Of a stretch of 64,000 nucleotides of DNA, positions 8,935-43,365 are shown in pieces. Origin of the DNA: Diphasiastrum complanatum (taxonomy: Eukaryota > Streptophyta > Lycopodiopsida > Lycopodiales > Lycopodiaceae). The notes below the pieces were generated by a model, which saw only the letters and a program-made list of their open reading frames with translations, was not told the DNA's origin and ran no database searches. How positions within the stretch are numbered: position 1 is the stretch's first letter; each line of letters begins with the position of its first letter. Position numbers and translations under genes: made by a program. The stretch is taken from NCBI GenBank assembly GCA_029204225.1, contig CM055102.1:29919632-29983631 (forward strand), written 5' to 3'.

Positions 8935-9470
8935 AAATCTGACTCTAGGCAATGCCTTAGTGAAGAGGTCCGCAATATTATCCTCCGTAGGACAATATGC
9001 AAGTAAAATGTCGCCATCATGAAGTCTCTCCCGAACAAAGTGATAATGGATCTCGATGTGCTTCGTCCTCACATGAAAAAACAGGATTCCGTGCAATGGC
9101 AATAACACTTTGACTATCACTCAAGATAAGAGTGGCTGAGGCTCGCCAAACTTCATGTGAACAAGTAGTCTTCTCAGCCATAAACACTCTGTTGTGGCTG
9201 AAAATATCGCTCTATATTCTGCCTCACTAGAAGAAGTAACAACAGTGGGCTGCTTTTTACTTGACCAAGAAATTGCAGAATTTCCATAGAAAAAGCAATG
9301 TCCACTTGTAGTTGATGTCCACCCCAATCCGAGTCACTAAAATCAACCAAACATGCATCATCACAAGCAGGAAAAACCAGTCCATGACTTCTTGTTCCTT
9401 GAAGATATCGAAAGATCCTCTTTGACGCTTTCCAATGTGATGTCATCGGGGCATGCATGAATTGACTCAT
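8902..9470 (-). pseudogene. Copia-1 RNase H
   Basis: Three short frames give SDWGG, FYGNSAISWSSKKQ, SSSEAEYRA and finally DIADLFTKALPR with one substitution. These are the signature blocks of copia RNase H (D, E and downstream tail). At least two frameshifts (near 9120 and 9300) split it. The last frame ends inside the left LTR at 8902. Confidence 0.85.
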
Positions 9471-10011
9471 GAGTGAGACACTATAAGAAATGTCCGGTCT
9501 TGAATTACATAGGTAAATGAGACAGCCAATAGCTTGACAATATAAAGTAGTGTCAAATGATTCACATCACCTTGACTACTTAATTTCAGACTTGTCTCCA
9601 TAGGTGTAGCAACCAGCTTGCAATCTCCCATCTTGAACCGCTTCAAAATCTGCCCAATGTAGCGTTCTTGAGAGATGAAAATTCTAGCCCCTTCTTGTAC
9701 AAATTCAAGACCAAGATAAATGTGCAATAGGCCTAAATTTGAGGTTTTAAAAACCATACCAAGATCAAGTATTACGACATCAATCTGCTGCTCATTACTT
9801 CCCGTAATAATAATATCATTAACATAAAGCAAAATAATGATGATATAATTTGAAGTATGCTTGACATAAAGGGTAGATTCGCTAGGACTATTAGTAAACT
9901 CTCGATCACAAAAGTAGGATGTATCTTTTGATACCACATCCTCGGAGCTTGCTTCAATCCATAAAGTGCCTTCTTAAGAAGACAAACTTTATCTTCTTGG
10001 CCTTCAATCAA
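9467..10011 (-). pseudogene. Copia-1 reverse transcriptase, catalytic half
   Basis: Reads KKALYGLKQAPRMWYQKI, then after a frame change SESTLYVKH, and the active-site block LLYVNDIIITGSN, followed by a degraded LGLxF..EGARIFISQERYI. The copia box is YVDD, but here the first catalytic Asp is Asn (codon at 9818-9820). That one change should abolish polymerase activity. Frameshift near 9930. Confidence 0.85.
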
Positions 10012-10139
10012 AAAACCAGCAGGTTGTTAAAGGTACACTTCCTCATTGAGATCACTATTGAGGAATGCTGTCTTTATGTCAAGTTGCCGCAAATGCCAAC
10101 CAAAGTGGGCAGCCAAAGAGGTTACTACCCTCACGGTAG

Positions 10140-10568
10140 TCATCCGAGCAGTAGGAGAAAAAGTCTCCTCATAATCAATCCCCTTTTGCTGAGCATAGCC
10201 TTTGGCAACGAGCCTTGCCTTGTACCTTTCAGTGGTACCATCTGCCTTATACTTGATTTTATATACCCATTTAGAACTGCCTTCTTCCCATGAGGAAGAT
10301 CAACAAGAACCCAAATCTGGTTCTTCATAAGTGAGTCATACTCATCTTGCATCGCATCCTTCCAACATTTTACTCCCTTGGTCTGCTCATAGAAAACAGG
10401 TTCTTTTGCAACATCTCCATGAGATGTAAGAACAAAATCTGAAAAATCAGCATAGTCCACTGATTTTGTAGAGGCACGTGTCTTTCCATCATAAAATGAA
10501 CTTACTTTGCTGTCCCGCAAAGTCGACAACAGCCACCGTGGGACTATCTTGGGCTGTCCAACAGCCAT
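10140..10568 (-). pseudogene. Copia-1 reverse transcriptase N-terminus
   Basis: Contains WKDAMQDEYDSLMKNQIW and a DLPHGKKAV segment, the opening block of copia RT. The frame then slips, with the expected KWV(Y/F)K..DG block read out of frame after about 10280. Confidence 0.8.
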
Positions 10569-10616
10569 GTCTCTTCTTACAATTTGTTGTCCAAGATCCT
10601 CCGATACCGCACTTGG

Positions 10617-11198
10617 CTATCCAAGATCTTCCAAAACTGGTCCTTGTTGTCCAAAAGTTCCTGTGGGCTGATTTTGAGCAACAACGGGCGGTTTTTTATG
10701 AACATTAGGCTCTAAACTTGATGAGGTGTTGGGCAGGTCGAAACTGGTTGATTGCTGCCCCTTATCTCTAGCAATAGAAGATGGTACCAAATTTGGAAAA
10801 ACTGCAACATTCACACTATGTGGGCTGTCCCCCTTCAAGATATGAGTTGGGGCCACATCCAATGAATTCTTTTCATCAAAATGCACATCACGACTAACAA
10901 TAATCTTGTTAGTGCTCAAATTGAACAGCCTATAGCCTTTGCTTTTACTACTATAGCCAACAAAAATGCATTTAACTCCTTTATCCTCAAGCTTTGTACA
11001 AAGTTTATCCGGAACAAAAGCATAAGCCGTACAACCAAAAATGCGAAAGTGAGAGATTGTAGGCTTCTTTCCATACCAAACTTCATAAGGAGTTAATACT
11101 TTCAATGCTTTAGTAGGACAACGATTGCTTATGTATGCTGCCGTTATAACCACTTCAGCCCAAAACTTGTGAGGCAGCCCCTTGCTTTGAGCATGCAA
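10617..11198 (-). pseudogene. Copia-1 integrase C-terminal part and linker
   Basis: Contains AQSKGLPHKFWAEVV, YISNRCPTKAL, TPYEVWYGKKP, RIFGCTAYAFVP and CIFVGYSSKSKGYRLF. These are the conserved blocks downstream of the copia integrase core, up to the GYS.xSKGYR motif. It follows the long gag-pol frame by a small frameshift near 11150-11198. Confidence 0.88.
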
Positions 11199-12811
11199 CG
11201 GGCCATCTCCATAAGTGTGTGATTCTTTCGCTCGGCAACACCATTTTGTTGAGGCGTATAGGGAGTTGTCATTTGATATAGAATTCCCTTTTCTAGAAGA
11301 AATGCACCGAACGTATTCTTAATGTATTCCCCTCCTCGATCAGTGCGTAGGGTCTTCAAAGAATGCCCAAACTGATTTTCCACCATTGCTAGAAAATCTT
11401 TGAAACGTTGAAAAACTTCGGATTTAGATGTCTTCAGCTTCTCCAAAATTGCAAAGTTGAGATGCCCAAACCTTGCGTGCCACAATTCAGCCAACTCCAA
11501 TGATTGTGATGTAGAAGCAACAAGACATGTAGAGGGAATTCGTCGCTCATAGGTATCCATAATGAATAAGCCAGCATGCATTGATCCCAAAACAATAATC
11601 AAGAGTGTTTTTTCAGGATTCTTGACAAGACACTTATCTTCTTTGAACTCAACAACTAGTCCTTGCTTCAACATAGTTGAAACCGAAAGAAGATTCTTCT
11701 TGATTCCCGGAACATAAAGCACATCCTTAATGTACTTTTCTTCACCATTAGGCAAATTGATGGCTACAATTCCAATTCCATGAATAGAATAAGATGCATC
11801 ATCCGCACATTGTACCTTACTTCCATTTTGCACTTTCACTAATTTAGTGAATGCTTCTTTGCGAGAAGTCTTATGATGAGTAGCACCACTATCAATCACC
11901 CATTCAATGGGCTGAAAATCAGCAACAGAATCTGAATTTCTCATAGATGTAGTAGTACTAGTAGGAAGCAATATTAGACACAAAAGCATAGTCTTGGTTG
12001 AAGAGATCACCACTAGCTTCAAGCTCTTGCTCCAAAGTAGCAAGTGAAGCACTAGTATCAATTCCTTTACGCTCCTCTTTCGCAAGCTTCTTCTTACAAT
12101 CATTGATGAAGTGCCCATACCTTTTGCAATAATGACACTTCCTTTTCTTCTTTTGAGTGTTGACATTTTGACCTCTAACGGGCTTTTGACTTGAAGAAGC
12201 AGCCCAACAAGTTCATCAAAGGAGAGTTGCTGTCCCCTAAGAGAGATACTCAAAGATGAAACAAATGGAAGATAAGATGAAGGTAATGAGTTGAGAGTAA
12301 TGGAAACAAATTGAGCATTCTCAATTATCTCATCAATATTGAGAAACTCCTCACGAAGATCCTTGATCTTCATCAAGTGAATGGTCACTTGATCCCCTTC
12401 TTGCATCTTCAACAAAGAAAGCTGATTTCTAAGATACACCACTCTTGCTGGATTTTTGACTCTATACATAGTATAAAGTGTATCCCACGCACTTTTAGAT
12501 GTCTTACAAGACCTAATATGAGGTAAGATAGATCTTTTCACAGCAAGAGCAACCATAGGATGTGCTTGTGCATCCTTTCTATCCCACTTCTTTTGTTCTT
12601 CCGAAGATGTAGAAGATGATGTTGATGATGATGATCCACGAGGTGTAGGAGGTGCCAAAGACGGAGGCCTTTCCTCATCACCATTGACCAAATTCCACGG
12701 CCCTTTCGCTATGAGAAGATTCTTCATCATGTAATTCCACAAGGAGTAGTTTGTGCCATCCAACCGATCTTCACTAAACAAAGAATCGATAGCTTCTAAT
12801 TCTTTAGCCAT
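11144..12811 (-). pseudogene. Copia-1 gag, protease and integrase core (deleted)
   Basis: Gag likely starts at Met 12811 (MAKELEAIDSLF), followed by the copia gag fold with GTNYSLWNYMMKNLL. A CCHC zinc knuckle (CHYCKRYGHFINDC, 12096-12137) lies in a different frame from the flanking ORF, so two compensating indels surround it. Protease has WVIDSGATHH (DSGAT 11879-11893). The pre-integrase block LWHARFGHLN is present, but the chain jumps from KLKT to SKSEVFQRFKDF. This drops roughly 90 residues, including the CxxC half of the zinc domain and the first catalytic Asp of DDE. The second Asp (RTDRGGEY) and Glu (NGVAERKN) remain. Confidence 0.88.
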
Positions 12812-13083
12812 TACCTCCAACAAAATTTCAGCTTGTAGTAGATAGGAAAGAGAGCCTTTCCACAACCAAATCTACTCAAAAATTTGCAGCAAACAAAGAG
12901 CTGAAAGTAGGAGCAAAGATGTCTTTCAATGTGCAACCAAAGTGCTCAAAAGATAATGGATAGATGGCTGTCTTTCTGCACAAAAAAACCAGCTTCTTGA
13001 AAATCAGGTTAGCTTCGATTGAAGCCTACACCGAAACCCAATTAGGAAGCCAAATAGTGTGATCAACACACACTCCAATAGGG

Positions 13084-17404: not shown

Positions 17405-17443
<39 letters not shown>
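17405..17443. repeat. AT microsatellite at hAT left edge
   Basis: Nearly pure AT dinucleotides directly before the GGATCC-rich hAT terminus. A similar run lies just outside the right edge (24923-24965). Confidence 0.9.
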
Positions 17444-17444
<1 letters not shown>

Positions 17445-17450
17445 TAGATC

Positions 17451-17530
17451 CAACAGTAGCGGGATCCATGGATCCCGGTACCGCGGATCCACTATGGTAT
17501 CGCGGATCCATACTGGTCCGTGATACCACA
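17451..17530. repeat. Iterated GCGGATCC subterminal motifs of the hAT element
   Basis: GGATCC or GCGGATCC appears five times within 60 bp, with GGTACC and GGTATC variants between. This is the expected binding array for a hAT transposase. Confidence 0.6.
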
Positions 17531-17801
17531 ATATTTAATATTTTTTAATATTTAAAATGCTAATTTTTTTTTTAAGCTAATCCCCCCCCCCTCGCTTCAT
17601 CTCTCTCCCTGCCCATCGCGTTGCTGTCCGCGCCCTCTGTGTTGTCCGCCCACTCCTCGCCAACATACTGTCTTCGCGTTGCACTGATCGCTTCCGCCCC
17701 CGCTATTGCTATTTCGGCCTTTGTTGTGGTTTTTCCAGCCGTCCGCCTCCTATCGCACTCACGATCATCTCTGCCTTCTTTCCCCAGTTCTTTCTACAGA
17801 A

Positions 17802-20800
17802 ATGGTGCATTCAAACCTTGCCGATCTGTGGGAAGAAGTGGACATTGTCAGGCGGGTTCCCGACAAGTCCAACAAGTCCGGTGCAAAGATCATGCTCTGT
17901 CGATATTGTCTGGCCGAGTTCATTGCCACCCTCACCCGCCTTAAAGGCCACCTACTCGGTGCACGCGCCAAAGATGGTGGCACACTAAATGCTGCCCCCT
18001 GTGCCAGCATGTCTGTTTCCGTCAGGCAGCCACTTCTGGACACCTACGGGCCACGTCTTGTGGCGGGGGAGAACACCATTTCGGAGGGTGTTCTTTGGTT
18101 TGCATCGCGCCTTACGTGGTTGACCCCGAGTTGCTGCCTGCTTGGCTGGGGAGTGCATCCTCGTCCAGTCCCTTTGCCCCTCACCCCCTCAGACAGTTCC
18201 GCCACACGCACCCCCATCTGCACCCATTCCGGTGGATCCCGTCCCATCGCGTCCACCAGGTGCCAGGGCATTTCCACCACCACCTACTATTGCTCGCACT
18301 CCCCCAGTTTACGACTTTCTCATGGACTCTCCACAGCTCGAGCAGGAGCAGACCCAAGATGCCAGTGACGAGGCCTTCCAAGATGTTGATGAGATCCCTT
18401 CCTCCCTCCCTTCCCATCCGGATGACCTTCCTAGCCAGTAGTTTTTGTATCCCATGTCAGATGTCCCCCCTCCACCAGTGTACCCCGCTTATGCTCTGCA
18501 CCCATCCCGACCAATGCATCCCACTCTCCCCATTCCACGTCTACAGCTGATGCATCCACTAGTGCCCAGCTTGCCGCGCCATCATCCATTCCCGTCACGT
18601 TTGGTGCACCGTGCTGGAAGTCCGCTACCCGTCGCCCAGCTGGGAGAGTTCTTAGACAGCAGAGCATTCGCGGCGCGCATCAGCCGCACATGGATAGAGA
18701 GGCCACACAGGCCGTGGCCAGTCTGATTTAAGAGTTGAACCTTCCATTTGCCATCACCGACTCTGAGCCCTTCAGAAGGGCTTTCCGTCTTGCACAGTCT
18801 GTCAGCCCTAGCTGAAGAGTCCCTAGTTCAGAGGTTGTCCGCACACACATGCCAAGGGATAGGGTCGAGTCATTGTCTAGAGAGATGGAGCCTCTACGTC
18901 GCCACTGGGCCACTTACGGTTGCAGCATCATGTCCGATGGCTGGACTGATGTTAGGAGGAGGCCGATCCTCAACATATTGGTCTCCAGCTGCATGGGCAC
19001 AGTTTTTGAGGGCCGTGGATTGCAGCAGGGAGAGTCATAGCTACAGAGTTCATGTTTGATGTCATCATGTCTTCCATCCTGTCCATAGGCCCACAACATG
19101 TCGTCACGGTGGTGACGGACAATGCCACGAACTGCATTCAGATGGGTGTACTGCTAGAGGCCGAGTTCCCTCACATTGTTCATACCCCCTGTGCAGCGCA
19201 CGACATAGACCTTCTGATGAGGGACATAGGTGCACTTCCCTGGGTTAGAGCCATCGTCCGTGAGGCCGTCTTCCTAGTGACTTTTGTCACCAGGAAGAGG
19301 CAAGTTCTTGCCATGTTCCGGGTGTTCAGCCAGTTGGACCTCAAGAATCCAGCCCCCACACGCTTTGCATTCGACTTAGTGGTCATCGACCGTTTGATCA
19401 GGTGCATGGCACAGCTTCTACAGAAGGTTGCCAGTGATCTTTGGTGTGCCAGTACGTTTCAGCACACTGAGGATGGGGAGCACTTTTCTTCCACGGTGAG
19501 GGGAGACCAGTTTTGGAGGGATGCACAGACATTGTCAGGACTCCTTCGAACACTCTACATTGTGCTCCGCATGGCTGACAGCGAGGGGTCGACACTTGGA
19601 CTGATATATGAGCTCATGGACCGGATCGGACAGTTCCTGCAGCTGCCCATCCTGCAACCAGAGAGGTAAGCGGTACAATAATGAATTGGTCTTTATCTTT
19701 TCAGTGGTTGCTAGCTTGTTTTTCTGTCAATGTTACGTTTTTTCGTAATGCCCAGGTTTTAACATGTCTCTCACCTGCAGGATGACCGAGCTGAAGTTCA
19801 TTTGGGAGACGCGGTGGAACTACTTCCACAGGAGTATCCACAGCGTTGCTCACATACTGCATTCCCTCTTCCTCTCTCCGACACAGATCGCAGACAGTGA
19901 GCTCGAGGCCGATTGGCTTCAGTACATTCACAGGGTGGGTCCACACATAGGTTTGGATCCTATCAGGCTCATGGAGGAGCTCGTTGCATTTTGTTTCTGC
20001 ATGGGCACGTTCGGCCACCCGGCTGCTCAGGATCTAGAGAGGAGGCAACTTCCCATTACCTGGTGGACCATGTTCGGTAGCACCTATCCATCTATACAAC
20101 GTCTTGTCAGGTATGCATCTCATTTTATCCTCCATTGCTATGTTTCGTTGACGTTCCACCCGTGCATATGTGCTGAAGCATTTCAATGCACGTACCACAG
20201 GACTGCGCTGTCTCCGTGTGTGAGCACAATTGGAGCACATGGGCACTCATTCACACGAGGAGAAGAAACAGGCTGTCAGTGAGTCAGTTGGAGCGGTTGG
20301 TGTTCTATAGCACCAACGCACGCCTCGCCAGGAGACTTTCGATCATTACGAGCGCATTGCAGGTGGTTAGCTATTCTCTCAGAGCATGTTGGTTGACGAC
20401 TTGTACGTTGGTTTCATTTCTTGATCAAATTGTCTCTCTGACATGCAAACTTTTAACCTTGCAGATGAAGATATCAGATTTGGAGCGCCAGGTTGACTTG
20501 CCTATAGACAGCACCCATCCCATGCCTGCAGATGACTTGGGCACACAGTTGATGGCAGAGAGAGAGAGGGAGCTTGCCGAGACGAGAGAGAGAGAGCTTG
20601 GGCTTGAGCACAGAGAGTCTCCATTGTACGAGGCAGATGAGCCAGTTTCAGAGGATGAGCATGATGAGGATGAGCCTATTCGGGTTGTATTTGCCAGATC
20701 AGAGAGGGATGAGGCAGATGGTACAGGTACAGGGCACACGCCACGGACAGGGGTCACAGGTGCATCACGTGGCAGAGGTGGGGCACATGGCATAGGTGTA

Positions 20801-22045
20801 CCGAGAGACAGGCAGGGCACACGGGGGGGGGGGGGGGGAGCAGTGGCATACCTACCTATGTCAACATGATGGAGGAGGCTCTTGATAGAGGGCAGAGTGA
20901 TTTAGATGCCGGTCCCGCAGCTGCTTGGATGCGTGCAGTACAGAGTCATGGCCGTTACTACGACAGCACACCAGAGGATGCACCAGATGACTTTGATTGC
21001 ACAGATTGCGAGGCCATGCAGGGTCTACAGAGTGCACATGATGAGGCACGGGTTGATTCAGGGGATGGTGCACAGGATGATTCAGGAGTTGGTGCACAGG
21101 ATGAGGCTTAGAGCCCAGTGCATTTGTATTCAGATGCCCAGCTAGACGACTTGATTGCCACATTGGATTCATCTCTTGCCAGCATGCCATACATAGAGTC
21201 CCAGCCAGAGCAACCGCATGAGGTGCCTACAGTTCCTCCAGTTCCTCAGAGGGTATATGTGCGCCGCACAGCTCCTCCAGTGCCACCGATGCCATTCAGG
21301 CCTGCAGCCCCTCCATCGCCGTCCACTTTTGCAGCACCAGGTCTCCATGGCAGGCCACCATCTGTGCCCAGGTTTTCTCTTGCAGCGCCCACATCCACAG
21401 TGGCTCCTCCAATGGCAGCACCCACGACACATCCTCCTCCCTTGGCAGCACCCACGACACCGGCTCCTCCTCTGACAGCACCCAGGATGTACCAGTACCG
21501 GCCACCGCATCGCCCCTTTCAGTACATATCACCGCTGTACTTGCCTCTTGCAGGGACGGCCCCTCCACAGCCAGTTCCTCCACCAGCAGCAGCCCCAAGG
21601 GCACACACACCACGGACCTATCCTCCATTATCAGCTGCACAAGGACACCCATCTTTGGCTTCTCTATCCCAGTCGGCCGCAGCTTGGGCCCAGCCTAGCC
21701 AGCCAGGTGATCTGCATGGGGGTGATGAGGCATTGACGGCTTCCCTCGTCCGCAAGAGGCCAGGAAGGCCCAACAAGAAAGGTAGAGCACAGAAACAGCC
21801 AAGGAAGAGGGGCTCCAATTACAGGTAGAGGCGCAGTATTACAACCAGCTGGAGCAGGTTTTGTTGGTTTAACTTGCTTGGGGGCTGATGCAGAGGCAGA
21901 TTGGGAGGATGAGGATGACGAGTCTTTTCCCTCGGATACACAGCCCATGCCAGTTCCAGACAGGCACAGATATCGGCTGCAAGTATCAGCTCGGGGCCCT
22001 GAGTTGTCTCCGGAGCATTCGTCTGAGTCAAAGCCAGAGCATTGA
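17802..22045 (+). pseudogene. hAT transposase, spliced, with long C-terminal tail
   Basis: Starts at ATG 17802 with a BED finger (LWEEV, CRYC, RLKGHLLGA). After a proline-rich linker with frame slips, DUF659 follows: CSIMSDGWTD (about 18926-18955) and VVTDNATN with TPCAAHDIDLL (19100-19215). An exon ends AG|GTAAGC at 19666. The next (19781-20110) carries WETRWNYFHRSI and WWTMFGSTYPSIQRL. The third (from 20201) holds CEHNWSTW and HTRRRNRLS, the dimerisation domain. The three acidic catalytic positions (D in DGWTD, D in TDNATN, E in CEHNW) all survive. Stops in the DUF659 entry (about 18729 and 18811), frameshifts near 19000-19050, and a phase mismatch at the third exon make it a pseudogene. 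Confidence 0.75.
20465..22045 (+). pseudogene. C-terminal extension of the hAT transposase gene
   Basis: After the dimerisation domain a splice acceptor (20464) opens an acidic Glu/Arg coiled-coil stretch (RERELAETRERELG), then an Asp/Glu tract. A 16-G run (20823-20838) shifts the frame. A proline/alanine-rich region of about 170 residues follows, with repeated TxPP(L/M)AAPT units. Near its end is an AT-hook-like core, KRPGRPNKKGR (about 21751-21783), then a final acidic tail DWEDEDDESF in another frame. Typical hAT proteins end soon after the dimerisation domain, so this tail is unusual. It may be a fused or second gene. Confidence 0.5.
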
Positions 22046-22542
22046 ATGTAGCTCTGTTATTTTATTTTCAACAGTTTGATGTCATGTTCCATGTTTGGCG
22101 GCCAGATGGTCGAACACTGTATTCAGACCATTTTCCATATTATATCCGGTGTTGGACATACTTTATTCGCTGCACATTTTGTATTTGTCGATTTGTAATT
22201 GCGATGCTCTGTTTCAATTTTATTTTGAATGGTATGTGCGTAATTTCAATTAGTTTCAACTACAGAGATTGATAGCAGATGCACAACACAGAAATACAAC
22301 CCCCTTTATAGCATTTCATGAACACATACATTACATTGCAATACACCAGGCACGCATTGCACAAAAAACACACCATACTTTAATTCATGAGATGTATCAA
22401 AATAACAATACGTATTCCCGTCGTATACGGCTGGGGCTGTTCTATACACTATGTTAGACACTAAATGTTGCTTCATCTACTGTCGAAATTTACATAACAA
22501 CAGTTAGCCACATAGGCTAGACGCCATTTATTCTAAACATTT

Positions 22543-22908
22543 CTATGGATCCTCCACTGACTCCTCGGCCTCGTCAGGTGCATTGTTCTGTCGCTCTCGC
22601 TCTGCCTCCCGATTAGCACGAGCTGCCTCCTGGTTAGCCCGACGGCGGGCAGCCCTTTCCCTGACCATGATGAGCTGCCGTCGTGTGAAGTTCATTCCGA
22701 TCTGCTCATCCAAATCCAGCTCGACAGCGGGGGCGGGGGGCACAGCGGGGGCTGGGTGCTTTGGCTCCGGATTTCTCTGCCGAGCCTGTCGCAGCATCTT
22801 TGCAATGTCTGCCTCTTGCTTCCGATGCCTTTCATTGTGCCTTCGGACATCTTCCTCGAGCTTCTTCTTGGCTTCGCCCTCAGGCCTTGGTGGTATGCAC
22901 TTCGCCAT
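22543..22908 (-). CDS. Unrecognised 121-residue basic coiled-coil ORF inside the hAT element
   Basis: I do not recognise it. The frame starts at ATG 22908 and ends at 22543, convergent with the transposase. The N-terminal third is a charged helix (KKKLEEDVRRHNERHRKQ), the middle is proline/alanine-rich, and the last 60 residues form another Arg/Glu/Ala helix (RERAARRRANQEAARANRE) ending in an acidic tail. This reads like a nucleic-acid-binding or adaptor protein and not random sequence. However, the GC-rich DNA has few stops in any frame, and a 130-codon frame overlaps on the plus strand. A TATA-like TTAAATA (minus, 23098-23104) lies 190 bp upstream. Function unknown. Confidence 0.4.
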   Translation of the reverse strand: MAKCIPPRPEGEAKKKLEEDVRRHNERHRKQEADIAKMLRQARQRNPEPKHPAPAVPPAPAVELDLDEQIGMNFTRRQLIMVRERAARRRANQEAARANREAERERQNNAPDEAEESVEDP

Positions 22909-22925
22909 CTCACGACACCTTGTTT

Positions 22926-23096
22926 CTCGAACTGGCTCTCACTGGCTCTCACAGCCTCTCAATGGCTCTCACTAGCTCTCTCACAGCCTCCCTCTCACAG
23001 CCTCTCACAATGCCTCTCTCTCACAGCTTCTCACTGGCTCTCTCTCACAACCTCTCACAATGCCACTCACTGGCTCTCTCACAGCCTCGTGAGTGC
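22926..23096. repeat. Short tandem repeats of TGGCTCTCACAGCCTCTC type
   Basis: About ten imperfect units built from GGCTCTCAC, CAGCCTCTC and CAATGCC blocks lie immediately upstream of the convergent ORF. Confidence 0.8.
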
Positions 23097-23274
23097 CTAT
23101 TTAACCCCACAGCCTGTTTTCCCATTTGTAGTTGTTGATGATCCCATGTGCTACTGTACCTGCCCCACATGTTGCACTCCGATTGGGTCCGTGGTCTGCT
23201 CCCCCACAGTGCCCATGTGACGGTGTACCTGTCCGGATTTGCTGCTCCCCCACATGCTGCACTCCCAGTGACCT

Positions 23275-24545
23275 TGAATCCGACCAATTCCTAGCTCGAT
23301 GGGCCTAGATTCCCAGGACTGCGTTTAGGGTTTCTGGTTCGGATGCACATTTTGCTGTGAGTATTGAACTGTTTGGAGCCTGGTTTAGTCATGTGGGTTT
23401 GTCTCGGCGTGCAGGATAGGACGGAACAGACTGTCTAAAAAACAAACTCCGTTCGACGACACTGGATCGGTTCTTGTGGATGCTGAAAAGCTGTCCATTT
23501 AGTGGCATTCCCCCTCGCAAAAAGGGCGTTGCCGGATAAACGACGTCGGAATTGAGCTGCAAATGGTCCTATGGGTTCGTGTCGAGCCCACGAACCTGTG
23601 GACACCTCCCGTTTGAGGTTCTGACTGTTTTTGACTGAATTCGACCAATTTCTGGCTCGACGGGCCTAGAATCCCAGAACTACGTTTAGGGTTTCTGGTT
23701 CGGGGACGCACATTTCGTTGTGAGTACTGAATCATTTGGAGTCCAGTTTAGTGCTATAAGTTCGTATCGACATGCAGCACAAGATGGAACAGATGGTCTG
23801 AAAAACGGACTTCGTTTGGCAACACTGAACCGGTTTTCAGGGATGCTAAAAAGTAGTCCATTTACTGGCATTTCCCTCCGCAGAAAGGGCATTTGTGAAC
23901 AAACGGCGTCGGAATCGAGCTACAAATGGTCCCATGGGTTCGTGTCGAGCCCACGAACCTGTGGACATCTCCCATCCGAGGTTCTGACTGTTTTTTACTG
24001 AATCCGACCAATTCTTGGCTCGATGGGCCTAGAATCCTAGAACTATGTTTAAGGTTTCTAGTTCGGACGCACGTTTCGTTATGAACTCTGAACCGTTTGG
24101 AGCCCGTTTTAGTCCTGTGGGTTCGTCTTGGCGTGCAACATAGGATGGAACAGACGGTCTGAAAAACGGATTTCGTTTGGCGACACTGGACCAGTTTTCG
24201 GGGATGTTGGAAAGTAGTCCATTTAGTGGCATTCTTCCTGACAGAAAGGGCATTTCCGGACAAACGGCGTTGGAATTGAGCTTCAAATAGTCTGGCGGAT
24301 TTGTGTCCAGCTCGCGAACCTATGGACACCTCCCGTTCGAAGTTCTGACCGTTTTTTACTGAATCCGTGGCTCGACGGGCCTAGAATCCCAGCACTACGT
24401 TTAGGGTTTCTGGTTCGGACGCACGTTTCGCTATGAGTACTGAACTATTTGGAGGCCAATTTAGTGTTGTAGGTTCCTATCGATGTGCAGCGCAGGACGA
24501 AACAGACGGTCTGAAAAACGGACTTTGTTCGGCGACACTAGACCG
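23275..24545. repeat. Tandem repeat, about 3.5 units of 352-363 bp
   Basis: The marker GGGCCTAG recurs at 23301, 23662, 24025 and 24377. Each unit carries the same series: TTTAGGGTTTCTGGTTCGGA, a CGGAACAGAC(G/T)GTCT block, CGACACTGGACC, GGCATT, and AACGGCGTCGGAATTGAGCT. The last unit is about half length. The open frames across it (for example 23862-24329) just follow the repeat. Confidence 0.9.
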
Positions 24546-24630
24546 AGACGGAACAGTTCTATGGAGGGCAGGGAGCGGTGGAGGGTGTGAGGGTGAGGGA
24601 GGGGTACGGAACGGGATTTAAAAAAATAAT

Positions 24631-24865
24631 AATTTCTTTTACCAAAATGTTTTTCTTTTAGTGATGATACCCCCTATCTAGCTCAAAACTGCACAAAAAT
24701 CTGTCTAGGGCCCCAAAAATCATGCCCTAATCTCAAGAAAAGGCGTATTACGCCTTTTCTTGAGATTAGGGCATGATTTTTGGGGCCCTAGACAGATTTT
24801 TGTGCAGTTTTGAGCTAGATAGGGGGTATCAACATTGAAAAGGAAACATTTTGGTAAAACAAATT
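24631..24865. repeat. Long near-perfect palindrome (foldback element)
   Basis: Arms 24666-24747 and 24749-24830 are exact reverse complements, 82 bp each, around a single base. Imperfect pairing extends the arms to 24631 and 24865. RNA from either strand would fold into a very stable hairpin. It lies within the right end of the hAT element. Confidence 0.92.
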
Positions 24866-24918
24866 AACCACGGAACCGTTTCGTGCTATAAAAAAGTACA
24901 GAACGTGTATTTTGTGCT

Positions 24919-24922
<4 letters not shown>

Positions 24923-24965
<43 letters not shown>
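24923..24965. repeat. AT microsatellite
   Basis: About 20 AT units directly outside the hAT right end. Confidence 0.95.
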
Positions 24966-24969
<4 letters not shown>

Positions 24970-26250
24970 CTAGTAAAGAGTGCCCGTCGTTGACGGGCAA
25001 TGGAGGCCGATCTAGGTGGCGGCCGATGATTTGGATGATGGCCGATCTCGCATCTTGAATATCTAACACTCCATTTAGAGAATCAAGCCAAGGTCTAGAG
25101 GGGATAGTAATCCACTTTAAAATATTTATCATAGAGGATTAATGCATAATCGTTCACATTTGTATAACTTATGCTTTGAGACATCTTAGCAAAGAACAAA
25201 AAGATGGAGGAAGATTTACATTCAAAGAATTCTTGAAAATACATTCTAAGCAATACACATCATTTGGATAAAGATAAAATTTTTGAATATCTGTAAATAA
25301 AAAGAGTTTCAAAACATCGTTGAAATGTCATCACTTAATTCTATTACCATTACCTGGCTATACATCAGGCTATCTAACATTGCCTAAAAGGCAGACGCAC
25401 TAATAGTGGTGCTATTCCTATATACATATCTTAAATTACTAAGTAGCAAATCTACATCTAAGAGCAAACAAAATCTTTGTGGAAATATACAGAATAACAA
25501 ATATACAGAACAACCACATATTTGTGCTGCAAAAGATATGCTCTCCATCAAATAACAAATATACAGAACAACCACATGGTTGTGCTGCAAAATATATGCT
25601 CTCCATCACCAAGCAGCTCCGTAAATTCCATGGAAAATCGACGATGATCCACCATCAAGTTCACCATCTGCACAAACACACAGGTGGCCAACTGTTATTA
25701 GATGAGACAAATCATAACATCAACATTGAACATTGTCAAAAATGATTTATGCAGGACCGAAACATTGTATCATGCTACATTCATAAACTCTAATCTATGC
25801 AATGTATTTGGTCAAAATAACAAGCGACTCACCAACATTATTGACATAAGAAATTGACATGCTTGTTGACTGGATTCAATGTTCAAAGTTTGTCGTCAAA
25901 TGATCTCGACAAACCTTCTTTGCAGATCGCTCCCAAACTACGATTGTTTGTTGTGTGACACGGGCTATGCTACAACTTCCACCTAGGAGGATGCAAAACC
26001 TTCGAATTGGGAGAGGCTCTAATTGGTTTATAGTTTTTATTGCAGGCCTCTACAATTGTACACAAATTTTAAACTTTGGCATTCACCAAGATTGTGTACA
26101 GTTGCAGATGCCTACATCTAAATGCTTGCAACAATAAGTGCCTTTCCAAATTTGAAGGTTACATTCTCCCAGGTGGAAGGTGTTGCAAAGCCTATGTCTC
26201 CTCATACAAACAATAATATTCACCAATTGCAAAAAAAAAACATTTACGTT
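24966..26250. other. No gene seen; small direct duplication
   Basis: The block 'aataacaaatatacagaacaaccacat' followed by 'tgtgctgcaaaa' is present twice (about 25494-25534 and 25553-25594). No coding signal is supported. Confidence 0.5.
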
Positions 26251-26969: not shown

Positions 26970-28330
26970 GTGCACCTTGCCACTTCTGCCACATTTGTAA
27001 ATCATCTCCCCTCACAGGAATCTTACCGCATACGATACGATCGTAATCTCCAACATTGATGGGTTTGCTCCGCTCCTCCAATATCATCAATAAATGGGCA
27101 TGGGACAATCCTCTCTTCTGAAACTCTACAACATGAAGCCTTCCTATAATGTGCCCAGATATCCCATTCTTCTTCAACTAATCAATCAAGTATTGAAGCT
27201 TTATGCTAAAAACCCTCGACACCAAATCGGGTCTATGTGCAGGTTTTTGTCGAAATTTCAACTCACTCCTCACTTCTGACGAATTTGGGTTCGTTGTCAT
27301 TGTGATAAACAAATCGGGAGAATCCAACTCCCTAACGACGACCATAACATCCTGGTACTGCTGATGCATATGACGCGGTGAACCGATATAAGATAATGGT
27401 AGGACTATTCGTTGCCCTATGTCCCTGGCAGAATGGGCTCCAAGGGCATTAACGATACCATTGCAAATCTCTCTACGAAATGTATCTCGATTGTTATAGA
27501 TGTAGTTCATGTTGTTGTGCACAATTTTTGCTACCATGTCACACACATACTCTTGCAACAACCTTCCACCCAAATGTATTAGTAAAACATGCTCTGCTCG
27601 TACCTGTAAATGGTAGCTGTAAAAGTGTCGAATGGTGACAACTTTGTGTCTGCCTTCTAATTGCTCTTCAGGAGCATCTGAATGTATACCATCACGCAAC
27701 ACCACCACGTGCAACATCTCTCATACACATATGTGGAATCCCCTGATACCACCCATCAGTACTGTAAGGAAAGAGGAGGACAAAATGCAAGGCATCATAC
27801 GATGAATGACTCTCTGTGATATGTTGCAAACCATCCTGAATGGAGTGCAATATGATGTCACACATTCCGTCGCTTGGGGCATCATCTATAGGCATAAGCA
27901 CTGCAATCTCATTGCTCGTAGGAGCATTGAACTGTCTATTCGCTCTACTCTGTGAACAACCAAACACTATGCGAAGTCAAATATCCTTTGTGAAGTTCTC
28001 TCGCATGATTCGAGCAACATTCTTAAAACGTTGCGCAAAGGCATTCACATCCATTATCATGCTTTGCAAAAGGGAAAGAACGTCACGCCTAAGATCGAGA
28101 TTCAGAGAGAATCTCTGATCTAATTGCAAATAATCACCATCCATGATGTAGTTTTTCGAAAATGAAGGTCTATCTAAAGGCAACAAACCACCAATATGAT
28201 GATACAACCGCCCAAACACTCTAAATGTATACGCGCCGCCTACGGAGTTGGCAGTGAATCTATCTAGATCACCTCAAGAGATGCAAAGGCCAATGAGTTA
28301 TTATAACTCGTGTACAAATTAAGGAGATGA
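26970..28330 (-). pseudogene. Helitron RepHel N-terminal part (truncated)
   Basis: Adjacent minus frames give, in order: NSLAFASL (about 28300); AYTFRVFGRLYHHIGGLLP; RDVLSLLQSM with VNAFAQRF; RQFNAPTSNEIAVLMP; GLQHITESHSSYDALHFVLL; LLQEYVCDMVAKI; LSYIGSPRHMHQQYQDVM; DLFITMTTNPNSSEV; HRPDLVSRVFSIKL; and VEFQKRGLSHAHLLMIL. These are the ordered blocks of the Helitron-like N-terminal domain and the Rep HUH motif (HAH, about 27094-27102). Similarity ends near 26970, before the Tyr motif and the whole helicase. The broken frames and missing half make it a relic. Rep normally nicks and joins DNA during rolling-circle transposition. Confidence 0.85.
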
Positions 28331-40026: not shown

Positions 40027-40851
40027 TTAAACCCACTTCGTGTCCTTTCTCCACACCTCTACTCCAAGGCAATAATGCATCAGGCTAAGATCTTTCATCT
40101 CGAATTGTTCCATGAGGTCTTTCTTGATCATGTCTATCATCTCTTGATTATTTCCCGTAATAATCAAGTCATCAACATAAAGAGCAATCAAAGCAACCAT
40201 ACCATCAAAGCATAAGACGTATAGATTTGAATCAGAATGTGTTCTCACCATCCCCTTTGAACGAAAGTAGGCATCAATCTTGGTATACCACGCACGTGGT
40301 GCCTGTTTAAGACCATAAAGCGCTTTCTTCAAGCGACATACTTTATTTTCTTGTCCCTTCACTACAAAGCCTTCAGGTTGATCCATGAACACTTCTTCTT
40401 CTAAATCACCACTTAGAAAAGTAGATTTCACATCCATCTGATGCAAAGGCCAACCAAAATGTGAAGCTAAAGCAACAAGTAGACGTAGAGTATTCCACCT
40501 ACAAACCGACGCAAAGGTCTCCTCATAGTCGATGCCTTTACTTTGTGCATACCCTTTGATCACCAATCTTGCCTTGTGCTTGGCTATACTTCCATCTGCA
40601 TGGTACTTAGTCCTGTATACCCATTTGCAACCAATGGGTTTCTTGCCAACTGGTGGTTCTACTAAGTCCCATGTGCTATGTTTAGCAATTGACTCCATCT
40701 CCTCTCCCATGGCCTTGACCCAAATGTCATCATCCTTCGCTTCACCATAAGTCGAAGGTTCTTTGCTTTGAATAATGCTAGATAAGAGAGCATAATTTGC
40801 TTCATACCTTTTAGGTTGTGTCTTCTCTCTTGTTGATCTTCGTAGCTCTCT
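40027..40851 (-). pseudogene. Copia-2 reverse transcriptase
   Basis: One long frame with MESIAKHSTWDLVEPP, GCKWVYRTKYHADGSIAKHK, YEETFASVCRWNTLR, LHQMDVKSTFLSGDL, KKALYGLKQAPRAWY and an intact YVDD in IALYVDDLIITGNN. The palm block reads MDVKSTFL where MDVKTAFL is usual, so the first catalytic Asp is kept. A TAG at about 40851 separates it from the integrase frame. It is the best preserved RT in the window. Confidence 0.9.
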
Positions 40852-41703
40852 CTAGCTAGATGATCCTGGAAAGTCATCCATGTCGCGGCTCTCCAACAAT
40901 CTCTCAAACCACTTAGGGAGCTTCCTGTCAGGTGATCGGCTTCTTGGTGAAAATGTATCCCACGGTACATCCTTCTCCTTGCGTTTGTCACCTGCAACTT
41001 CAATCCTTCTTGCACCAAAAGGTTTGTCCCTACCTCTCCAACCTATCTCTTGAGGTTGAGTAGTAGTATCTTGAGATGTATCCTCTTTTTCATCACTTGG
41101 AAGGTCAATGAATGGATCATCATCAGGTGGTATCCTCACTATACCATATTCCCCACTGTGTGTCTCTATCTTCTCAGCATCCTCGTCTTCATACATCTTG
41201 AATTCATCAAAGATAACATCACGGCTTATATGGACTTTGTTTTCCACTGGATCAAAACATCTATAGCCCTTCACACGGTCATCATATCCCAGGAATATAC
41301 ACTTGATAGCTTTTACATCAAGTTTACGTTTCTCTTTCTTAGGAATGTGTACAAAGGCCTTACATCCAAAGATTCGCAAGTGGTTCACCTTTGGCTTCTT
41401 CTTCGTGAATGCTTCCTCAGGTGTTATCTTTGGTATGGCAATGGTAGGACTTCTATTTTGAAGATAGATTGTCGTGTTGCATGCTTCTGACCCAAAATCT
41501 TTTGGTAGTTTCATCTTAGCTAGCATAGATCTGGCACTTTCCACAATCGTCCGATTCTTGTGCTCAGCTACACCAGTGAGAGCAGGAGTATGAGATTGCG
41601 TAAATTGTCTTTTAATCCCACATTGATCACAAAGATCATTGAAGTCACTAGACTTGTACTCACCTCCACTATCTGATCTTAGGACTTTGATCTTCCTACC
41701 TGT
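40852..41703 (-). pseudogene. Copia-2 integrase, C-terminal half and linker
   Basis: After a stop at 41704-41706 the frame continues with KVLRSDSGGEY, GVAEHKNRTI, ESARSMLAKMKLPKDF, NRSPTIAI, LRIFGCKAFVHIP and CIFLGYDDRVKGYRCF. The second catalytic Asp and the Glu (in VAEHKN) are kept. A charged, weakly conserved linker of about 100 residues leads to RT. Confidence 0.88.
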
Positions 41704-43365
41704 CTAATTTTCGACCAATGCTTTGAGGCTTTTGAAGTTGTCAAATGCATCTGATTTCTTCTTCAAGAAGTAGATCCACGTCTTACGTGACATATTATCA
41801 ATGATGGTCATGAAATAGAAGACTTTAACTAAGGACATGGTCCTCATAGGCCCGCATAAATCTGTGTGGATTAAATCCAGGATGTTCTTTGCTCTTGCAA
41901 CACCCCCTTTATTGAACTTCTCTCGATGCTGCTTCCCATATACACAAGATTCGCACATCGATTTCAAGTGATCTTCTATGGTAGGCGATCCTGTTACCAT
42001 CTCCAATTTTCTCAGCAAACTGAGGCTTCCCAAGTTCAAGTGACCAAGCCTCTTTTGCCACAACTCAGTTTGTGATGGAATGGACGATACAAGTCCATGT
42101 TTTCCCTTGATTGTAGCATTCAACCTGTACAGTTTTGTATTGGGCTCTCTTACTCCATCTGCAATAACTTTGAAATTTTGGTTCACATCCTTCACAAAGC
42201 AACGATCATGGGAGAATTCTACTTTCAACTTTTGATCAGTAATGACTCCAACAGAAAGTAGATTTTTCTTCAAACCTGGTACATAAAGTACCTCCCTGAT
42301 TATCCTGCTTTTGCCATCAGGTAGTTGGATTGAAACGGTGCCTATCCCCTTGATCTTGAACACCTCACCATTTGCTTGTGAAATGGGCGTTCCATTATCC
42401 AACACTTTCATGCTACTGAACCAATTCTTGTTACTTGTCATGTGTCTTGTGGCTTCCGAGTCAATATACCACGCTTGATCATCTTGATTAGATGACAATG
42501 CATATATGAAGATGCTAGAGTCTTCAATCTCACCCTCATCGACAAGGTTACCTGCTTGTTTTGGTTTCCCCTTGCCTTGTTCCACCAGGAATTTGCGACA
42601 TTCACTCTTCCAATGGCCCTTTTTACCACAATGGAAGCACTTGCCTTTCTTGTTGGTCTTACTGGAAGATCCCTCATCCTCCTGAGACTTGACAAATTGC
42701 TGCTTAGACTTCTTCTTGCCCTTGCCCTTGCCTTGTTTTTGGCGTGTCGCAAGTGCCTGATCGTCAGTATTTTGACGTCTAGCTTTCACCATTTCTCGTC
42801 GTTGCTCTTCTTGCATCAAGATTCATGTGAGCTCGTCAAAGGTTGGCAATCTTTCTCTTGATGCTATTCCACTCACAAACATCTGATAGGGTTCTGCAAT
42901 GCCACACAATGCATTGTGCACCAGCTCCACATCACGTATGCACTCACCAATAGAATGCAGTTCATCCCTCATTGTCTTGATTCTGGTCATGTATGTCTAA
43001 ATGTGCTCTCCTTGCTCCATTCGGGCACTATTCAGCTTTGACTTCAGAAACATGAATCTTGACGGATTTGACGTCTCGAACTGCTCCTTTAGCACATCCC
43101 ATGCCTGTCTGGATGTAACAACATCACAAATGTGGGTAATGATGTGATCCTTCACTGACAAGTTAATGAAGGTCAAAGCTTTCCTCATCTTTTTGTCGAA
43201 CACTTTGATATCCACTTCATTTGGTGGCCTTCTCCCACATGTGACGACTTCCCACACGCCTTTCTCCATTAGTATGTTTTTCATTTTGAATTTCCACACT
43301 GCATAGTTGGAAATCCCGTCCAATTTGCTACTTTCACTCAAAATGGACTCTCCCATGTTTGCCAT
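41704..43365 (-). pseudogene. Copia-2 gag, protease and integrase N-terminal half
   Basis: Gag starts at Met 43365 (MANMGESILSESSKLDGISN), with YAVWKFKMKNIL and WDVLKEQFE, a TAG at about 42996 and a TGA near 42822. The zinc knuckle is CFHCGKKGHWKSEC. Protease reads WYIDSEATRHMT: the DSG(A/S)T triad has Glu for Gly (42448-42462), which should inactivate it. Integrase has ELWQKRLGHLN, where the first zinc His is Gln, then CESCVYGK and the first catalytic Asp in IHTDLCGPM. Confidence 0.9.

Follow-up and report, generated by a model that had tools for sequence, protein, structure and literature searches.

hAT transposons are usually regarded as single-gene elements. Mutator and Harbinger elements are known to have accessory proteins, and in maize MuDR the transposase gene mudrA and the element's own second gene mudrB are convergent. 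Published accounts of MuDR call the function of mudrB undetermined yet seemingly necessary (PMC2725143) and describe the gene as apparently needed for integration (PMC6446971). Fungal hAT7 elements, which carry a TET/JBP dioxygenase gene, are an exception to the single-gene rule for hAT (PMC12730594). Here we describe a stretch of 64,000 nucleotides (the window) from contig CM055102.1 of the lycopod Diphasiastrum complanatum, in which positions 17443-23273 are probably a dead, right-truncated copy of a high-copy DUF659-type hAT family with a transposase gene and a convergent, putative accessory gene of 121 codons.

The family resembles DUF659-type plant hAT elements in its DUF659 core, hAT C-terminal region, 8-bp duplication, short termini starting with CA, and clustered subterminal repeats, for which the subterminal repeats (STRs) of Hermes offer a comparison (PMC10368747). 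It differs from them in its second convergent gene, a long selected C-terminal extension, and a strong association with (TA)n. Like MuDR, it is a DNA transposon with a transposase gene and a second gene of its own; MuDR, however, belongs to the Mutator superfamily, and the likeness to mudrB is an analogy with no claim of sequence relation. With fungal hAT7 it shares the combination of a hAT element and an accessory gene, whereas hAT7 has an enzyme gene, 7-bp duplications, and rust-fungal hosts. An insertion bias to (TA)n microsatellites like that seen here is described for Micron, MuTAnT, and Ac-mMITE in PMC8449440; unlike the present hAT, Ac-mMITE is there reported as Mutator-related, and MuTAnT is Mutator-like by the title of a reference. 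A partial literature search turned up neither a plant hAT equipped with a dedicated second gene nor a hAT that targets (TA)n.

A probable second gene convergent with the transposase

The copy in the window is decayed, with its left end kept and its canonical right end gone. Its transposase gene (17802-22045, plus strand) is broken by several stops and frameshifts, and its small open reading frame (sORF; 22543-22908, minus strand) is intact. We searched for copies in the window's own assembly, which comprises 1.745 Gb in 5176 contigs. With the sORF DNA as query, 40 of 2460 first-look candidates were scored, and the 39 other than the window's own displayed 93-95% identity; with the DUF659 stretch, 40 of 2798 candidates were scored, and the long non-self matches displayed 94-96%. 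Flanks were fetched for 20 of the 39 other sORF loci (fetched loci carry L numbers below). The sORF covers 359-366 of its 366 bases in all 20, and the DUF659 stretch occurs in eight of them, once partially; the remainder are deletion derivatives or other layouts. Three of the loci (L015, L016, and L017) share one sORF sequence and are possibly duplicates. Complete copies, L015 among them, hold transposase, sORF, 85-bp repeats, and right end in collinear order, and their two frames converge between CATAG...CTATG, with the transposase running rightwards from the left arm and the 121-codon frame leftwards from the right arm. The sORF is intact in 13 of the 33 full-length fetched copies other than that of the window, as expected for copies decaying after insertion.

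Linkage was also read from the transposase side, in 12 copies (rows 2-13 of the DUF659 match list). Three of these contain the whole sORF in the expected orientation (L062, of which the far stretch alone was fetched, L078/L067, and L083/L072), and a fourth (L074/L063) keeps about half of it, equivalent to window positions 22543-22714. Among the remaining three, L075 runs off the fetched stretch, L077 is without family sequence, and L082 does not continue past the hAT C-terminal piece. The other five (L073, L076, which has an inverted copy nearby, L079, L080, and L081) have lost the sORF through internal deletions and retain right-arm sequence. The initial annotation of this DNA had proposed a two-gene hAT lineage with a convergent small gene, to which copies lacking that gene would be an objection. 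The objection stands for these five copies and fails for those that keep the gene whole or in half, and we read the former as probable deletion derivatives rather than as traces of a one-gene ancestor. With a small gene that occurs in many copies, keeps a collinear position to the transposase wherever copies are complete, and bears a signature of purifying selection (below), the proposed two-gene lineage is well supported in this genome.

One sub-family of the sORF looks like the product of a recent, non-autonomous burst: the stretch 4860-5260 of L011 has 39 further places at 97-99% identity among 40 scored of 2025 candidates. L011 and L018, which are much alike, have lost the transposase core and kept the sORF with an apparent in-frame N-terminal deletion. 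Six further copies of this sub-family were read, five of them open and one with a stop.

Probable selection on the small gene

We compared synonymous and nonsynonymous variants of the sORF among 42 distinct copies, the ratio w being taken against the spectrum of variants found in one or two copies. The rare variants look neutral (39 synonymous, 115 nonsynonymous, w 1.09). Meanwhile, variants in at least three copies numbered 30 synonymous to 35 nonsynonymous, five of the 35 being stops (w 0.43, p 7.5e-4), and those in at least seven copies 9 to 1 (p 5.9e-5; 10 to 1 with 40 distinct copies). In this comparison, which the initial annotation had suggested, the variants common to many copies are mostly synonymous.

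The transposase pieces behave similarly at the threshold of three copies, with w between 0.09 and 0.37. Synonymous to nonsynonymous counts were 5 to 3 in DUF659 (seven distinct copies only), 5 to 1 at 19782-20110, 5 to 2 at 20201-20359, 11 to 10 at 20465-20815 (w 0.37, p 0.021, the bias being gone at four copies or more with w 0.82), and 25 to 17 at 21112-21780 (w 0.27, p 2.7e-5). The non-coding stretches 22060-22500 and 22909-23150, the latter read on the minus strand, displayed no synonymous bias at three copies or more in three frames each (lowest p 0.28). These counts support the sORF as a putative protein-coding gene.

Several observations weigh against this interpretation. The controls have flaws: the rare class is biased as well in the transposase exon 19782-20110 (p 2.2e-3), and in two frames expected to be neutral (22060-22500 and a wrong frame of 20465-20815) this class gave p 0.049 and p 0.013, respectively. 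A parsimony tree test was only marginal (internal branches 42 to 47, terminal branches 91 to 167, Fisher p 0.058), the five stop-creating variants are each common to at least three copies, and the fixed differences of the recent sub-family (8 synonymous, 9 nonsynonymous) add no sign of selection. The p-values assume independent variants, and the sampled copies are those nearest to the window copy in one assembly, with no relative from outside that genome.

A further difficulty comes from the opposite strand. A plus-strand frame within 22508-22975 shares its third positions with the sORF. At the threshold of three copies it displays 31 synonymous to 34 nonsynonymous variants (w 0.45), and at that of seven 8 to 2; among 29 ungapped copies this frame is open in 18 and the sORF in 13. 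Substitutions alone do not tell the two apart, and if the plus frame were the conserved one, the minus-strand ORF would be its shadow. We consider this unlikely and favour the minus strand, short of proof, because four other features point to it. The composition score is -2.0 for the minus frame and -30.9 for its competitor. Changes shared by at least three copies number 23, 11, and 31 at minus-frame positions 1, 2, and 3; the difference is small, and the minimum at codon position 2 is the usual coding pattern. When the plus ORF is taken at full length, including the part outside the minus ORF, its signal weakens from 0.45 to 0.57. Finally, the region upstream of the sORF (22909-23159, minus strand) holds short CT/CA repeats (22931-23088) and a TATA-like box, TTAAATAG, that reads in the minus direction (23104-23097); the motif and its flanks are unchanged in 21 of 26 aligned stretches.

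Two other origins of the sORF were weighed. It might be an ORF arisen by chance in a GC-rich repeat, with the apparent selection a sampling artefact. Its length is indeed within chance, since ATG-started ORFs of at least 121 codons arise in 24% of 500 dinucleotide shuffles of 22060-23270, in 13.6% of 500 shuffles of 22500-23100, and in 79% of shuffles of the whole element, and the transposase region has antisense ORFs of comparable length as well; the marginal tree test points the same way. Yet the selection signal is confined to the register common to the minus frame and its antisense frame, the two non-coding stretches lack it, and the transposase pieces share it. By codon-position composition the sORF ranks first among six frames, and just 1 of 401 chance ORFs equal to it in length reached its score, under a model trained on transposase pieces in which one 34-codon segment was in the wrong frame. 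A chance origin is thus very unlikely. Capture of a host gene fragment by transduplication, followed by passive amplification, would have a parallel in the grapevine hAT family Hatvine-6, whose elements have stretches in common with host genes (PMC2528002). This origin, too, appears improbable given the selection signature across copies and the position of all 20 sORF loci with flanks in family sequence. The predicted protein also matched no Pfam family, even at an E-value of 10. One diverged host gene would have gone unnoticed, however, if it ranked below the 40 scored matches. We therefore retain the sORF as a putative selected gene of the element.

The predicted proteins

Of the 121 residues in the family version of the sORF protein, 24 are Lys/Arg and 27 are Asp/Glu. 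An AlphaFold2 model of the window's sORF, made from the single sequence, displayed two long, charged helices (residues 11-45 and 66-108) and a Pro/Ala linker between them, with a predicted local distance difference test score (pLDDT) of 79 and a predicted template modelling score (pTM) of 0.32. The protein had one match in NCBIfam at 0.02, below its cut-off, and one unconvincing match in the Protein Data Bank (PDB) at 0.51. Neither the sORF nor the DUF659 piece had protein relatives in the viral contigs searched.

The transposase displays DUF659 at about 18820-19267 and the hAT C-terminal region at about 20201-20360. Read through with X at the breaks, it matched Pfam DUF659 at 3e-38 over positions 1-149 of the 152 in the model, and the unbroken piece 19010-19669 alone matched at 4.5e-19; the read-through match to Dimer_Tnp_hAT (0.013) was below the cut-off. 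DUF659 over nearly the whole model places the family in the hAT superfamily by transposase type, and the presence of DUF659, the absence of any Mutator-like element (MULE) family among the Pfam matches, and a duplication of 8 rather than 9 bp speak against Mutator, the alternative superfamily for a two-gene element that targets TA. Some of the stops and shifts lie inside the DUF659 core, and the window copy probably yields no normal transposase. A BED-like finger pattern is visible by eye at the N-terminus; Pfam gave no zf-BED match, and zf-C2HE (0.078) was below the cut-off. The C-terminus carries a long, low-complexity, Pro-rich extension (20465-22045, plus strand) with the motif RPGRPNKKG, AT-hook-like by eye. 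This extension comprises about 500 residues and carries a purifying-selection signature of its own.

Termini and target sites

Copies with intact ends in the same genome have the form (TA)n-CATAG...CTATG-(TA)n, with terminal inverted repeats that are perfect over 5 bp only (CATAG at both ends). In the window the left terminus, CATAGATCC..., is retained together with subterminal repeats resembling GGTACCGCGG (17443-17560, plus strand), and an (AT)19 tract, the target-site microsatellite, precedes it (17405-17442). The complete copy L015 is 5984 bp long and is without the stretch equivalent to 21504-21866. Allowing at most two mismatches on either strand, it contains six GGTACCGCGG-like motifs in each of its two terminal 150-bp stretches, left and right, and a single one in the 5684 bp between them.

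In other copies the right arm consists of two to four 85-bp repeats followed by a further 240-270 bp that end in ...GGTACCACGTGCCACTATG, and an (AT)n tract usually adjoins. The window holds a remnant of these subterminal tandem repeats at 23160-23273 (plus strand), and this is its last homology to the family: AT tracts aside, homology stops at 23273 in 16 of 20 loci, at 23275 in one (L021), and before 23273 in three (L009, L014, and L028). The right arm beyond this point, taken from three copies, has only matches of 15-40 bp elsewhere in the window, indicating that the window copy, which does not have both termini, lost its right end.

End counts were made by exact end patterns, leaving out ends that deviate from them. 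Among right ends, 11 of the 14 distinct ones (16 of 20 before merging) abut AT repeats of at least 8 nt, and that of L011 runs into an imperfect AT run. Nine distinct left ends were counted, that of the window among them, and (AT)n precedes every one; a tenth, from the copy outside a TA tract described below, brings the count to nine of ten. Judged by these junctions, the family inserts mostly within (TA)n microsatellites. Target-site duplications are unreadable in such copies; the one copy examined outside a TA tract (on contig C17, at about 11.97 Mb) is flanked on both sides by the 8-bp duplication GCTGGAAT, as expected for hAT.

A mini-element of 138 bp (CATAGATCC...CCATAG) lies between (TA)n tracts in L022 (6619-6756). 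It is perhaps a miniature inverted-repeat transposable element (MITE) of the hAT family.

Repeats to the right of the element

The window copy sits in a GC-rich island (17443-24922) flanked by two AT tracts, the second of which (24923-24969) need not be the original target tract of this hAT copy. The initial annotation had read the island as one element, and the parts it listed are all there: the island itself, hAT-type coding pieces (Pfam DUF659), the 121-codon minus-strand ORF, its short-repeat upstream region with a TATA-like box, 3.5 units of a tandem repeat at 23275-24545 (unit 361 bp), and a long palindrome at 24630-24866. What does not hold is the unity of these parts, as elsewhere the family runs some 240-270 bp beyond the equivalent of 23273 to a right end that is absent here.

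The palindrome, with 118-nt arms that are 94% complementary, a 1-nt loop, and a folding z of -30, belongs to a copy of a dispersed foldback (hairpin) repeat (24620-24867). As first proposed, array and palindrome would form a structured subterminal arm belonging to the element, which would agree with their position beside the hAT between the two AT tracts. However, array, palindrome, and window right end are missing, at half length or more, from all 20 sORF loci, and the 361-bp unit occurs in none of the stretches fetched beside the 12 transposase copies. Both repeats also occur elsewhere. A search with the 361-bp unit found 991 candidates, of which 40 were scored; these yielded 180 rows, the listed ones mostly tandem and at 72-87% identity (the window's own apart). 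In five array loci that were read, hAT sequence was limited to one 41-bp match at 83%; the neighbours of the window's array are not common to these loci, which display some similarity beyond the arrays among themselves. The palindrome query gave 94 rows from 40 scored of 60 candidates, and the listed matches elsewhere cover only query positions 58-322 of 377, never the outer flanks. With a family right end that is a different one, the proposed arm is scarcely credible, and by these comparisons array and palindrome are repeat families independent of the element. The objection that the initial annotation itself foresaw for the repeats, an existence apart from the hAT, is thereby essentially borne out.

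Among differences between the 361-bp units, transitions predominate (e.g., 56 against 12 transversions), in keeping with decay through methylation. The genome holds many more short arrays of this repeat.

Other features of the window

An Rfam scan of the window at gathering scores gave no matches. The motif AAACGG, the Ac transposase site, was tried and dropped: it occurs 20 times against 14.8 expected, 11 of 100 shuffles had as many, and nine of the 20 sites lie among the non-independent units of the 361-bp array. Copia-type retrotransposon reading frames, recognised by motif only, lie on the minus strand at 9467-12871 (broken) and 40027-42822. Also on the minus strand, a Helitron-like 3' end at 24970-25003, recognised by eye as a hairpin followed by CTAG ahead of T, adjoins the right AT tract, and an ORF at 27178-27720 is likewise Helitron-like; both are putatively Helitron-related by motif.

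A possible mode of action and its significance

Based on these findings, we postulate that active source copies would make both proteins. The transposase would bind the clustered GGTACCGCGG repeats via its BED-like finger and cut the ends, and the small, charged, two-helix protein may act with or on the transposase complex as an accessory factor in assembly, target choice, or relief from silencing. This accessory role is suggested by the selection on the sORF, by its layout, and by analogy with mudrB and other accessory genes. The window copy would have lost its right end in a rearrangement that joined it to the tandem array of 361-bp units; a foldback element would also have inserted next to that array.

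It is conceivable, though we put it forward only tentatively, that a plant hAT lineage evolved a selected, convergent second protein used for (TA)n targeting or escape from silencing, a hAT counterpart of the MuDR/VANDAL accessory systems. A selected second gene together with (TA)n association in a high-copy, plant-type hAT would offer a testable case of the gain of an accessory function and of the use of a low-harm target.

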